A DNA stretch of 64,000 bases, taken from positions 112,633 to 176,632 of the forward strand of contig JAGHVB010000020.1 in assembly GCA_018064525.1 (NCBI GenBank), given 5' to 3'. Positions 13,930 to 38,147 of this stretch are shown here, piece by piece (position 1 is the first letter of the stretch; each line of letters begins with the position of its first letter). The position numbers were made by a program, and so were the translations under genes. Source of the stretch: Candidatus Treponema merdequi (GTDB lineage: Bacteria; Spirochaetota; Spirochaetia; Treponematales; Treponemataceae). A model generated the notes under the pieces. It did not search any database and was not told the DNA's origin. It saw only the letters and a program-made list of their open reading frames with translations.

Positions 13930-15651
13930 ATGAAAATTACTGGCGCACAGATTGTTATTGAATGTCTTGTTGAACAGGGCGTTAAAACTATTTTTGGTTA
14001 TCCGGGTGGAGCTATCCTTAATATTTACGATGAACTTTATAAAAACTCTGACAGAATTACTCATATTTTGACTGCACATGAACAGGCTGCATGCCACGCG
14101 GCAGACGGTTACGCACGTTCTACTGGAAAAGTCGGTGTCTGCATGGCGACAAGCGGTCCGGGTGCTACAAATCTTGTAACTGGAATTGCAAATGCGTATA
14201 TGGATTCTGTTCCGATTGTTGCAATTACTTGTAACGTAATAAAACCTCTTCTCGGAAAAGATTCTTTTCAGGAAATTGATATCACTGGTGTTACGATGCC
14301 TATTACAAAACACAATGTAATTGTAATGGATGTAAAAGATCTTGCGTCGACAATCCGTGAAGCTTTTTTAATTGCAAAGTCTGGTCGTCCGGGACCTGTT
14401 CTTATTGATATTCCAAAAGATGTAACAGCAGCTCTCTGTGATTTTGAACCTATGAAAAATCCTGATGAAGCTGTAACAAAAAATGCTGCAGATCATGCAA
14501 ACATCAAGCGCGCAATTTCGATTAAAAAGCCTGATGCCGCTCAGTTAAAGCTTGCTGCGGAATTAATCAATAAAGCTGAACGCCCTGTAATCTATGCAGG
14601 CGGCGGTGTAAAAATCTCTGGTGCTGAAAAAGAACTTTTAGCATTTGCAGAAAAATGTGATATTCCTGTAAGCGAAAGTCTTATGGGACGCGATGTATTT
14701 CCTGCAACTCATCCGCTTTGTACATGGATGGTTGGTATGCATGGAACTAAAGCATCGAACCTTGCAATTACAAACAGCGATTTAGTTATCGCAATCGGTT
14801 CACGCTTTTCTGACCGCGTTCTCGGCGACCCTTCAAAGTTTGCAGCCAATTCTAAAATTTTACATATCGATGTTGACCCTGCAGAAATCAACAAGAATGT
14901 AACTACGACAGAAAGTGTTGTAGGCGATGTTAAAGAAGTTCTTTCTGCATTGATTCCACTTGTGACAAAAGCAAAACACACAGAGTGGGTAAACATGATT
15001 CATGACTGGATGAAAGAAGTTCCATCTAATTATTTCAAACAGCCGGTTGATTCAATCAATCCGAAATTTATCTGCGAGTACATCAACAAAGCTGCAGGTG
15101 AAGATACATTCATCACGACAGAAGTCGGTCAGCATCAGATGTGGACTGCACAGTTTTATCCGTTTACAAAACCGAGAACTTTCAACACATCAGGCGGACT
15201 TGGAACTATGGGATTTGGAACTGGAGCTGCAATCGGCATTCAGTGTGCAAATCCAAAGGCACGCGTTGTTCACATTGCAGGTGACGGCTCGTTCCGCATG
15301 AACTGCAACGAACTTGCAACTATCAGCCACTATCAGCTTCCGATTATCATCGTAATCGAAAACAACGGCACACTCGGAAACGTCCGTATGTGGCAGAAAC
15401 TTTTCTACGAGAATCGTTTCAGTCAGACAACTTTAGACTTTGGCCCTGACTGGCTTAAGCTTGCTGATGCGTATGGAATTGACGCGTTCCGTGCGGGTAA
15501 TGCAGAAGAGTTTAAGGTGGCGTTTGATAAGGCGCTTGCACTTGGAAAACCTTGTTTAATTGATGCAAAAGTTGATATCGACGAAATGGTATTACCGATG
15601 GTTCCGGGTGGAAAGCCGATTGATGCTCCTATTATGGAATGGGGGAATTAA
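13930..15651 (+). CDS. ilvB: Acetolactate synthase large subunit
   Basis: VKTIFGYPGGAILNIYDELY, GPGATNLVTGIANAYMDSVP, IVIENNGTLGNVRMWQ, ThDP-binding GDGSFRMNCNEL. Confidence 0.96.
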   Translation: MKITGAQIVIECLVEQGVKTIFGYPGGAILNIYDELYKNSDRITHILTAHEQAACHAADGYARSTGKVGVCMATSGPGATNLVTGIANAYMDSVPIVAITCNVIKPLLGKDSFQEIDITGVTMPITKHNVIVMDVKDLASTIREAFLIAKSGRPGPVLIDIPKDVTAALCDFEPMKNPDEAVTKNAADHANIKRAISIKKPDAAQLKLAAELINKAERPVIYAGGGVKISGAEKELLAFAEKCDIPVSESLMGRDVFPATHPLCTWMVGMHGTKASNLAITNSDLVIAIGSRFSDRVLGDPSKFAANSKILHIDVDPAEINKNVTTTESVVGDVKEVLSALIPLVTKAKHTEWVNMIHDWMKEVPSNYFKQPVDSINPKFICEYINKAAGEDTFITTEVGQHQMWTAQFYPFTKPRTFNTSGGLGTMGFGTGAAIGIQCANPKARVVHIAGDGSFRMNCNELATISHYQLPIIIVIENNGTLGNVRMWQKLFYENRFSQTTLDFGPDWLKLADAYGIDAFRAGNAEEFKVAFDKALALGKPCLIDAKVDIDEMVLPMVPGGKPIDAPIMEWGN

Positions 15652-15684
15652 TTAGGAATTAGGAATTAGGAATTAGGAATTAGG
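15650..15684. repeat. 7-bp tandem repeat (AATTAGG)x5
   Basis: Direct reading across the ilvB stop codon. Confidence 0.95.
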
Positions 15685-15722
15685 GCCGGGGGCACGTTGA
15701 GGTGCTTTCCGGTCTTTTTTTT
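15684..15722 (+). terminator. Intrinsic terminator after ilvB
   Basis: GGCCGG...GCACgttgagGTGC...CCGGTC followed by a T-run. Confidence 0.75.
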
Positions 15723-20865: not shown

Positions 20866-21576
20866 ATGGCAAAGACTAAAGTACTTTCAGTTGGCGGATC
20901 AATTGTTGTTCCGGAAACTCCTGACACAGACTTTTTGAAAAAATTTGTTTCAATGACAAGTGAATGGCTTTCACAGGATAAAAGCCGTCGTTTGATTTTA
21001 GTAGTTGGCGGCGGCGGACCTGCTCGTATTTATCAGGGTGCATACCGCGAAATCTGCTCTTCACTTGCACAGGCTCAGACTGCTGATTCATCAGAACAGG
21101 ACTGGATTGGAATCATGGCAACAAGATTGAATGCACAGCTTTTAAAAGCAAGTTTTGGAAATCTCTGCCAGAATGCAGTTGTTTATAATCCGACAGAAGA
21201 TATCGATTTTAAAGGTCAGGTTCTTGTTGCTGCAGGATGGAAACCGGGATTTTCAACAGATAATGATGCAGTTTTACTTGCAGAAAAATTCAATGCAGAT
21301 ACAGTTGTAAATCTTTCAAACATCGAAAAAGTTTACACAGACGATCCAAGAAAAAATCCAGATGCAACTCCGATTGATAACATCACATGGAAAGACTTCA
21401 GAAAGATGGTAGGAGATGAATGGGTTCCTGGAAAGAACTGTCCGTTTGATCCGATTGCTTCAAAAAAATCTGACGAACTCAACCTTACAGTAATCTGTGC
21501 CGCCGGCAAAAATATCGACAACATCAAAGCCATCCTTGACGACAAAGATTATATCGGTACAACAATCAGAAATTAA
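20866..21576 (+). CDS. pyrH: UMP kinase (archaeal-like PyrH type)
   Basis: VLSVGGSIVVP, LVVGGGGPARIYQGA, NLSNIEKVYTDDPRKNPDA, DPIASKKSDELNLTVICAAG. Confidence 0.85.
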   Translation: MAKTKVLSVGGSIVVPETPDTDFLKKFVSMTSEWLSQDKSRRLILVVGGGGPARIYQGAYREICSSLAQAQTADSSEQDWIGIMATRLNAQLLKASFGNLCQNAVVYNPTEDIDFKGQVLVAAGWKPGFSTDNDAVLLAEKFNADTVVNLSNIEKVYTDDPRKNPDATPIDNITWKDFRKMVGDEWVPGKNCPFDPIASKKSDELNLTVICAAGKNIDNIKAILDDKDYIGTTIRN

Positions 21577-21628
21577 AATAAAAAAAACAGACATTGGTCA
21601 AATAGATTTATAGATATTAATAAAGATG

Positions 21629-21753
21629 TTTTTTATGTGCGTAGTCGATTTTGCGATACAAAAAAAATTCTGCGCCGCAGTAATGCTTCTCTGGCACGCC
21701 CGCGAGCACAGCCTTTTTTTGTATCACAAAACCGACGAAAGCACATAAAAAAA
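21629..21753 (-). repeat. Imperfect long palindrome A (shared-loop IR family)
   Basis: Outer stem TTTTTTATGTGC/GCACATAAAAAA, 3/4-nt internal loop, inner stem GTCGATTTTGCGATACAAAAAAA / TTTTTTTGTATCACAAAACCGAC; minus-strand RNA pairs fully with G.U wobbles. Confidence 0.8.
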
Positions 21754-21794
21754 TATTTAGTAGTATTAAATTTATTTAATCAGTGTCTGTTTTT

Positions 21795-22496
21795 TTATTT
21801 TAATTCTTTCAGATATTTGATAATTTTTTCGGCATAAAGCTTGTCGGCGGCCCAGGTTCCGGAGAGGCCTTCTACTGTGGTGGCTTTGGCTCGCGGACGG
21901 ACGTATTTGTAGCGTGGGTCGATGCATTCATTTTTTAATACGATGTCTTCTGTTGTGGCGTATGCGTGAAGATGCTGAATGTGTGCTCTGACACCGAGCC
22001 GCATTGTCTTGAATCTGAGGCCCGGCTGATTTTCGTCAATTGCTCCGAGACCGCAGAAATTATTCCATTCTTTTTTTACAAGATTTCCAAAACGCAAAAA
22101 ATTTGTTTCGTGACACATCTGTATAAATGCGACATCTGAATTGATTCCTTCGGTGGCGCATTCTTCGATGTAAAGTTTTGCAATTTTTTTTGCACGTGAT
22201 CTGTTTTGTTTTGAATGTGTGCAGAAAAAAGCATAAAGTTCTTTTTCGGTGTGTGTGCCGGCTGAATAGATGAGAGGTGAAGTGAAAATTTCTTCTTCCG
22301 GAAGAAGTTCGTTTTCCGGCAAGAGCTGATTTTCCGGTAAATCAAAATTGATTAAATCTTCTGGATTAATTTTTTCTTCCTGAGAAATCTGTTCCGGTAT
22401 TGATTCTGTGATGGCGGTTTGAGAAGTTCCATCTGAAAAATCAGAGCTTATGCAGCCTGCAAAAAAAAGACTTAAAAAAATACATAAAACTGGCAT
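21795..22496 (-). CDS. Glucosaminidase-domain lipoprotein
   Basis: Signal/lipobox FLSLFFAGC; AFIQMCHETNFLRFGNLVKKEWNNFCGLGAIDENQPGLRFKTMRLGVRAHIQHLHAYA. Confidence 0.85.
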   Translation of the reverse strand: MPVLCIFLSLFFAGCISSDFSDGTSQTAITESIPEQISQEEKINPEDLINFDLPENQLLPENELLPEEEIFTSPLIYSAGTHTEKELYAFFCTHSKQNRSRAKKIAKLYIEECATEGINSDVAFIQMCHETNFLRFGNLVKKEWNNFCGLGAIDENQPGLRFKTMRLGVRAHIQHLHAYATTEDIVLKNECIDPRYKYVRPRAKATTVEGLSGTWAADKLYAEKIIKYLKELK

Positions 22497-28831: not shown

Positions 28832-28908
28832 CCGTGGCCTGGAGCCACGGAAACCTCCAGGTTAGTATTTAGAACCTCCGGTCGTTGGCTGGAGGTTCTT
28901 TTTTTTTA
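28832..28908 (+). terminator. Hairpin (CCGTGGC/GCCACGG) followed by intrinsic terminator (AGAACCTCC/GGAGGTTCT + T8)
   Basis: Direct reading; first hairpin 28832-28850, terminator 28871-28908. Confidence 0.9.
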
Positions 28909-28970: not shown

Positions 28971-29126
28971 CGTTCTGTAAAAAAATACTGGCGGAGCAAA
29001 AATCATGTAACCGGAGACTCGCGAGTCCGGGTGAGGGGTGTTATGAAATGACTGACAGTGCTGTACGGCGAGGGCGTCGGAGGATTACATGAGTTTTTGC
29101 GGGAGACAGTATTTTTTTACAGAACG
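28971..29126 (+). repeat. Imperfect long palindrome B (shared-loop IR family)
   Basis: Perfect 20-bp outer arms CGTTCTGTAAAAAAATACTG/CAGTATTTTTTTACAGAACG, internal loop, inner stem CAAAAATCATGTAA/TTACATGAGTTTTTG, GC-rich apical region. Confidence 0.92.
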
Positions 29127-29180
29127 AGTATTGAGATGGAATAATGATGTTTTGTGTGATATATTTTTTTGAGGAAAAAT

Positions 29181-37848: not shown

Positions 37849-37975
37849 AACACCTGCGTAGCAAAAAATTATAAAAACGTAGCTTCGTGAGTCCCGCGGA
37901 ATTTTTAACCCTGGTTGAGGGAAAATGGCGGCGAACGCGGCGGAGTTTTTATAATTTTTTGTGAGAGCAGGTGTT
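37849..37975 (+). repeat. Imperfect long palindrome C (shared-loop IR family)
   Basis: Outer stem AACACCTGC/GCAGGTGTT, 4/5-nt internal loop, perfect 17-bp inner stem CAAAAAATTATAAAAAC/GTTTTTATAATTTTTTG, GC-rich apical region. Confidence 0.92.
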
Positions 37976-38020
37976 TTTTTGGATATTAGTATTACAAAGT
38001 AGTAAATAAAAATATCCGTA

Positions 38021-38060
38021 ACGGAGTTTTTATAATTTCCCGCGAGAGCAGGTGTTTTTT
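38021..38060 (+). repeat. Partial duplicate of right arm of palindrome C
   Basis: CGGAGTTTTTATAATTTCCCGCGAGAGCAGGTGTTTTTTTT versus CGGAGTTTTTATAATTTTTTGTGAGAGCAGGTGTTTTTTT. Confidence 0.85.
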
Positions 38061-38147
38061 TTGATGTCAATTTGTACTTTCAGTATTTTATGTTTTTTTG
38101 TATTATAATGCTTCTTATGTTATAATATTCTTCTTAAGGGAGTGTTT

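Follow-up and report, generated by a model that had tools for sequence, protein, structure and literature searches.

ERIC, NEMIS, BIME and Ype repeats are intergenic repeated palindromes that are reported to be transcribed together with neighbouring genes and to form hairpins in the RNA; preliminary data suggest that some of them enhance transcript stability (PMC1590033). REP repeats consist of a 20-40 bp hairpin with an unpaired GTAG tag at its end, and G-T pairs in their stems have been taken as a hint of RNA function; the phyla with GTAG-REPs exclude Spirochaetes, and those with CGTC repeats include them (PMC3733652). Here we describe three palindromes, A, B and C, in the window, the whole 64-kb stretch of DNA that was analysed, which belongs to contig C43 of the 2.70 Mb genome G000 of Candidatus Treponema merdequi. 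From their sequences, we judge it slightly better than an even bet that all three belong to a superfamily of extragenic palindromic elements that extends across Treponemataceae and acts as folded RNA. The element family is real, family-wide and uncatalogued, and its kind is already known: it is that of the ERIC/NEMIS/REP-like intergenic repeated palindromes.

Three palindromes of the window and their relatives

Copy B is a 156-nt palindrome on the plus strand (28971-29126). Its outer arms, at 28971-28990 and 29107-29126, are the sole pair of 20-nt, 100% inverted repeats within 250 nt in the whole window, and they pair in the RNA fold. Inside them lies a 3x4 internal loop, with GGA (28993-28995) on the 5' side and GGGA (29101-29104) on the 3' side, following the family rule that places GGA opposite GGGA. 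RNA folding then gives an inner stem (28996-29012, GCAAAAATCATGTAACC, and 29082-29100) that encloses, at 29013-29081, a second internal loop (GGA 29013-29015 / GGA 29079-29081) and a GC-rich head with a variable apical part. The folding energy is -65.0 kcal/mol, compared with -37.3 +/- 3.5 for shuffled sequences (z -7.9), and none of 200 shuffles matched it. The perfect 20-bp outer arms, purine loops, inner stem and GC-rich head that a preliminary description had given copy B are confirmed. The element is flanked by an ABC permease gene (BPD_transp_2) on one side and by a gene with a NADase_transloc domain on the other, and a separate ordinary terminator at 28871-28899 precedes it. A promoter-like match (TTTACA, 18 nt, AATAAT, TG before) falls on the right arm at 29116-29145, ahead of the next gene; it may be a chance match, as the promoter scan yields fewer sites overall than shuffles do.

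Copy C (37849-37975, plus strand) has its parts in the same order as B: outer arms at 37850-37857 and 37967-37974, a loop of 5' GTA (37858-37860) and 3' GAGA (37963-37966), an inner stem at 37862-37878 and 37945-37961, and a second loop of GTA (37879-37881) and GGA (37942-37944). B and C can be aligned over their full length, in agreement with the earlier claim that C shares the layout and head motifs of B, and a model built from the family recovers both (4e-30 for B and 4e-29 for C), as it does by construction. Copy C lies between a gene of the isocitrate/isopropylmalate dehydrogenase family and a gene with sigma-70 regions 2 and 4. Beside it, at 38020-38061 on the plus strand, is a truncated right-half copy that repeats 'CGGAGTTTTTATAATTT...GAGAGCAGGTGTTTTTTT' and matches the model weakly (E 0.07-0.08). 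Two nearly identical B/C-type copies lie just beyond the window in direct tandem with an AT-rich spacer (L010:1496-1763, G000:C43:108995-109262).

Copy A (21626-21759) has an outer stem, a loop of GTA (21641-21643) and GAAA (21737-21740), and a 23-bp inner stem that ends in an A8/T7 tract and leads into a GC-rich head. The preliminary description had listed A as a copy of the same family on the minus strand. Its layout of outer stem, 3x4 loop and inner stem does agree with that of the others, but its head differs, and its loop places it on the plus strand, the earlier reading having taken the head from the other strand. The element is also larger than noted, since inverted-repeat search adds a third, outermost pair of arms (21571-21610 and 21767-21805); in this full extent (21571-21805, plus strand) it occupies the whole gap between two convergent genes. 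The strand that carries GTA or GGA is therefore plus in A, B and C alike. B and C are one subfamily and A is a second, with a distinct conserved head. A separate dispersed repeat, a short tandem run of 'TTAGGAATTAGGAATTAGGAATTAG', lies past a stop codon at 15640-15686 of the window, and near-identical 'TTAGGAATTAGGAATTAGGAATTAG'-type runs occur at many sites in the sister genome G007.

Further genomic copies, which the preliminary description proposed to seek, are many. The 2.7 Mb window genome holds about 22 sites of both subfamilies, 12 of the B/C subfamily (model R2) and 10 of subfamily A and its relatives (model R1), and both subfamilies are present in the closely related species Candidatus Treponema scatequi (G007). 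Model R1 detects relatives in 34 of the 118 genomes sampled from the genus. The broader model R3 matched 41 of 393 Spirochaetota genomes, 40 of them in the same family (35 in the genus and 5 in other genera); the single match outside the family is weak and comes from another family of the same order. The genome G091 has at least 40 sites by blastn, a lower bound given that 40 candidates were scored. Among 28 of its cores, each of 88 bp, mean identity is 95%, with diverged adjoining segments. About half of the G091 copies sit within a further inverted repeat some 30 nt beyond the core (TAGGGCGAATGTCGAGTT-like; for example L122:5740-5990), which also shows compensated two-sided variants. Copies often form pairs spaced by 50-120 nt, in either inverted or direct orientation, as REP doublets do (L030:1324-1708, L032:1405-1744 and L031:1461-1780). 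Contig ends fall inside these palindromes (the end of G000:C71, the start of G000:C74 and the end of G007:C246), so assemblies break there and copy numbers are underestimated.

The literature searched contained no account of repeats like these from Treponema. The comparison with Rfam that had been proposed for these loci matched no family: Rfam 15 at gathering thresholds gave 0 matches in the window, and eight element-bearing loci gave sub-threshold matches at chance level only. In blastn searches, B had no match among plasmids and one relative had none among phages, and the subfamily A pattern had 0 matches in viral_contigs. Viral carriage was also considered through two short patterns and rejected, as each had more than 120 matches in viral_contigs, about the chance expectation, and when 121 matches of the second pattern were folded, the few well-paired ones lacked the loops. 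The possibility that the palindromes flank a cargo or transposase gene was dropped as well, because the first such pair (G032:C70) encloses a protein that reads as triose-phosphate isomerase, a chance neighbourhood.

Covariation of the fold and asymmetry between strands

Elements of the family are 110-250 bp long and share an outer stem, the 3x4 internal loop, an inner stem that includes an A/T tract, and a head rich in GC. The loop reads GTA, GGA or GCA on the 5' side opposite GAAA, GAGA or GGGA on the 3' side, and the GCA/GAAA variant was found in another genus. We scored covariation as alignment cells altered on both sides with pairing kept, using shuffles and sliding of the pairing partner as controls. 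Such cells numbered 103 in subfamily A (12 copies; shuffled mean 33.7), 49 in the B/C subfamily (18.1) and 236 in a set of 28 elements from many species (61.8). Covariation was lost in all three alignments when the partner was slid by 1-3 columns. In subfamily A, 28 of 43 pairs show two-sided change with pairing kept; in its outer stem, all 12 pairs changed on both sides and still pair. The covariation that the preliminary description suggested looking for is thus present and far above both controls.

The loop itself also covaries. At its second base, the combination of 5' T and 3' A was counted 33 times, G and G 27 times and T and G 7 times, while G and A never occurred (Fisher p 1.6e-12; p values here and below treat copies as independent, though many share ancestry), and the pattern is similar across 98 copies. 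This alternation of T/A and G/G suggests a non-canonical pair in an RNA-type internal loop. The fold predicted for the elements is strongly supported.

Were the palindrome important solely as duplex or cruciform DNA, G-T and A-C mismatches would be equally frequent, because a G-T site on one strand is an A-C site on its complement. In the GTA/GGA strand, however, G-T wobbles outnumber A-C mismatches by 19:3 in outer stems and by 75:2 in inner stems, the latter ratio being due in part to one recurrent G-T position. The excess has the same direction in three separate genome sets, with both mismatch types scored alike. When orientation is taken from the loop alone, wobbles exceed A-C mismatches by 19:1 in elements that the upstream gene enters in sense, by 13:1 in convergent, 7:4 in antisense and 8:3 in divergent contexts; counted by element in this set, the figures are 45 and 6. 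Between co-directional genes the GTA/GGA strand is sense 32 times and antisense 12 times (p 0.004), gene context for all these counts coming from a crude ORF caller. Non-sense contexts show a weak asymmetry (15:7), so part of the excess could reflect transcription-linked C-to-T mutation, but a C-to-T bias alone should flip the asymmetry in antisense copies, and no flip is seen.

The excess of G-T over A-C on one strand argues for a single folded strand. RNA is the simplest reading of this one-strand signal, with strand-specific ssDNA as the other reading, and the RNA level is well supported. The earlier proposal that arms which change and yet keep pairing reflect selection on a folded single strand gains support from stem covariation, loop covariation and wobble asymmetry together.

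The ssDNA reading would make the elements mobile hairpins of the REP or IS200-IS605 kind, in which a transposase reads one folded strand by a GTAG or GGAG tag and what is selected is transposition instead of an RNA. Recognition of one ssDNA strand would fit the strand asymmetry too; the 5' loop with the next base spells GTAG or GGAG, of which GTAG is the REP tag (PMC3733652), copies occur in inverted or direct pairs, and at least 40 copies have been amplified in one genome. However, the tag lies within a helix with the outer stem instead of terminating a hairpin of 20-40 bp, and the 32:12 sense bias is unexpected for a DNA-only element. Y1_Tnp, present in 29 of 118 genomes (26 above the cut-off), occurs in 6 of the 34 element-bearing genomes, where about 8 would be expected, and is absent from both G007 and G091, the genome with the most copies. 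A REP/RAYT origin was rejected when this search of 118 genomes gave no association between Y1_Tnp and the elements, and we regard mobile ssDNA hairpins more broadly as an unlikely explanation.

Turnover between sister species

Loci turn over fast between G000 and G007, by gain or loss, truncation, inversion and fold-back conversion of arms. Presence and absence at orthologous sites, the behaviour of a MITE, is seen at C15, where a 247-bp palindrome between convergent genes in G000 corresponds to 4 bp in G007. TTAA stands on both sides of this palindrome; it may be a target-site duplication, but the two stop codons explain it equally well. No related autonomous transposon copy was seen among the sampled loci. 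The idea that the outer arms are copied host target sequence was rejected, since the outermost arms at C15 lie inside the DNA that is extra relative to G007; C25 was likewise rejected as an empty site in G007, which keeps a right-end remnant there and thus has a partial deletion. At copy A, the interior is inverted between the species inside conserved outermost arms. The G007 counterpart of B (L096, G007:C144) has had its left half replaced by an inverted copy of its right half, which erased the loops and left a nearly perfect hairpin of -126 kcal/mol. It is possibly a natural fold-back template-switch event or else an assembly artefact, as some rearrangements at such palindromes could be, at least one G007 contig ending at one.

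Across orthologous outer stems, 12 changes are two-sided, none is one-sided and one is broken. At C2a the stems changed, and the adjoining copy C2b is nearly unchanged. Template switching is known to make arms uniform and to invert spacers (PMC8604942, PMC7202029), and we attribute these concerted two-sided changes to fold-back template switching. Fold-back conversion is therefore a real contributor to arm pairing. Because it can keep arms complementary by itself, paired arms alone are no proof of selection, a point absent from the preliminary description.

Carried to its limit, this process would leave the elements as decaying, functionless MITE-like palindromes whose arms are complementary solely through fold-back template switching. 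The event at the G007 B locus, the tally of 12 two-sided and 0 one-sided changes in orthologous outer stems, the inversion of the interior of A between species and the truncated right halves would all follow. Homogenisation alone, however, should wipe out the loops, whereas the 3x4 loop persists and covaries, and a strand-symmetric process predicts equal numbers of G-T and A-C mismatches, which are strongly unequal. The 95% identity of G091 cores beside diverged adjoining segments also speaks against decay. Fold-back template switching cannot account for the persistent covarying loops or for the strand asymmetry, and we give the functionless account only about one chance in five.

Putative role at transcript ends and comparison with known systems

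Outward from the loop, the GC fraction of 98 copies falls through 0.95, 0.92, 0.73, 0.55, 0.27, 0.13 and 0.08, with T reaching 0.85 on the 3' arm and A exceeding 0.8 on the 5' arm. This position profile shows what defines an intrinsic terminator, a stem rich in GC that gives way at once to a U tract, and the GC clamp and U tract are mirrored for the opposite strand. In subfamily A, the head runs directly into a T tract of its own. Many copies lie about 30-60 nt past a stop codon. Only 49 of the 98 copies, however, contain at least 6 T in the 8 nt that were scored beyond the clamp, and B in the window follows an ordinary terminator of its own. With 12 placed elements in divergent gene pairs and another 12 in antisense orientation, not every element can terminate a neighbouring mRNA. 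An early enrichment between convergent genes (17:9) became 15:12 in the fuller set and was dropped.

The GC clamp beside the loop and the T tract that follows favour a terminator-like hairpin at the 3' end, and the likeliest function, a plausible one on present sequence evidence, is that of a putative intrinsic-terminator-like, end-protecting 3' hairpin. The sense transcript of the upstream gene would end in the element or pass through it, and the transcribed element would fold as a rod in which non-canonical purine loops separate two or three stacked helices. Together with its U tract, the GC clamp on the outer side of the loop, and likewise the head with its own U tract, would then form a terminator-like, exonuclease-resistant 3' end, and the purine loops would probably serve as a binding site or RNA motif. 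Two causes would keep the arms complementary, namely selection on the fold and fold-back template switching that copies one arm onto the other.

A bolder proposal, which we consider a long shot, is that the elements are self-spreading RNA parasites or modules. A dedicated protein, either an RNA-binding regulator or a recombinase or reverse transcriptase that works in trans, would recognise the folded transcript by its covarying GNA/GNRA-like loop, and the transcript would be copied into new gene ends, each new copy bringing a ready-made terminator. Least probable of all is a trans-acting or protein-binding small RNA family that sits at gene ends by chance, its purine loops serving, for instance, as the docking site of a regulator. 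This would suit the conserved purine loops with their covarying non-canonical position and the conservation of the head within subfamilies, but not the 40 or more near-identical copies in some genomes and the many genomes with none.

The preliminary description left three options, of which a structured RNA family and a mobile palindrome each hold in part and a folded, attC-like recombination site is not supported. Integron attC sites resemble the treponeme elements in being folded strands with conserved structure and variable stem sequence. The conserved features of the elements, however, are purine internal loops and not R boxes: by inspection, alignments A2-A5 have no conserved columns corresponding to the attC boxes RYYYAAC/GTTRRRY at stem ends. 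Moreover, the elements are dispersed single copies and do not form arrays.

If many gene ends in a host-associated family of bacteria carry a structured element that no catalogue lists, transcript ends, operons and genome plasticity in these bacteria would be read differently. Since the same loci can be compared between species, they also allow selection on the fold to be separated from fold-back copying, two causes of paired arms that are commonly conflated where structured RNAs are called from covariation.

Among known systems, bidirectional intrinsic terminators share with the elements GC-rich pairs followed by a T tract, an A tract on the other arm and, in many cases, a position just past a stop codon, but the treponeme elements are far longer, multi-loop, repeated and turning over, and not all of them lie downstream of a gene. 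REP/RAYT systems resemble them in inverted or direct pairs, a GTAG-like tetranucleotide on one side and wobble pairs. Unlike REPs, the treponeme elements are 110-250 bp long, carry the tag in an internal loop and do not co-occur with an HUH/Y1 transposase. ERIC, NEMIS, Ype and BIME repeats are likewise intergenic repeated palindromes; going by how those repeats are described, the Treponemataceae-restricted elements are set apart by a conserved, covarying 3x4 purine loop between two hypervariable stems, together with a terminator-like clamp and U tract.
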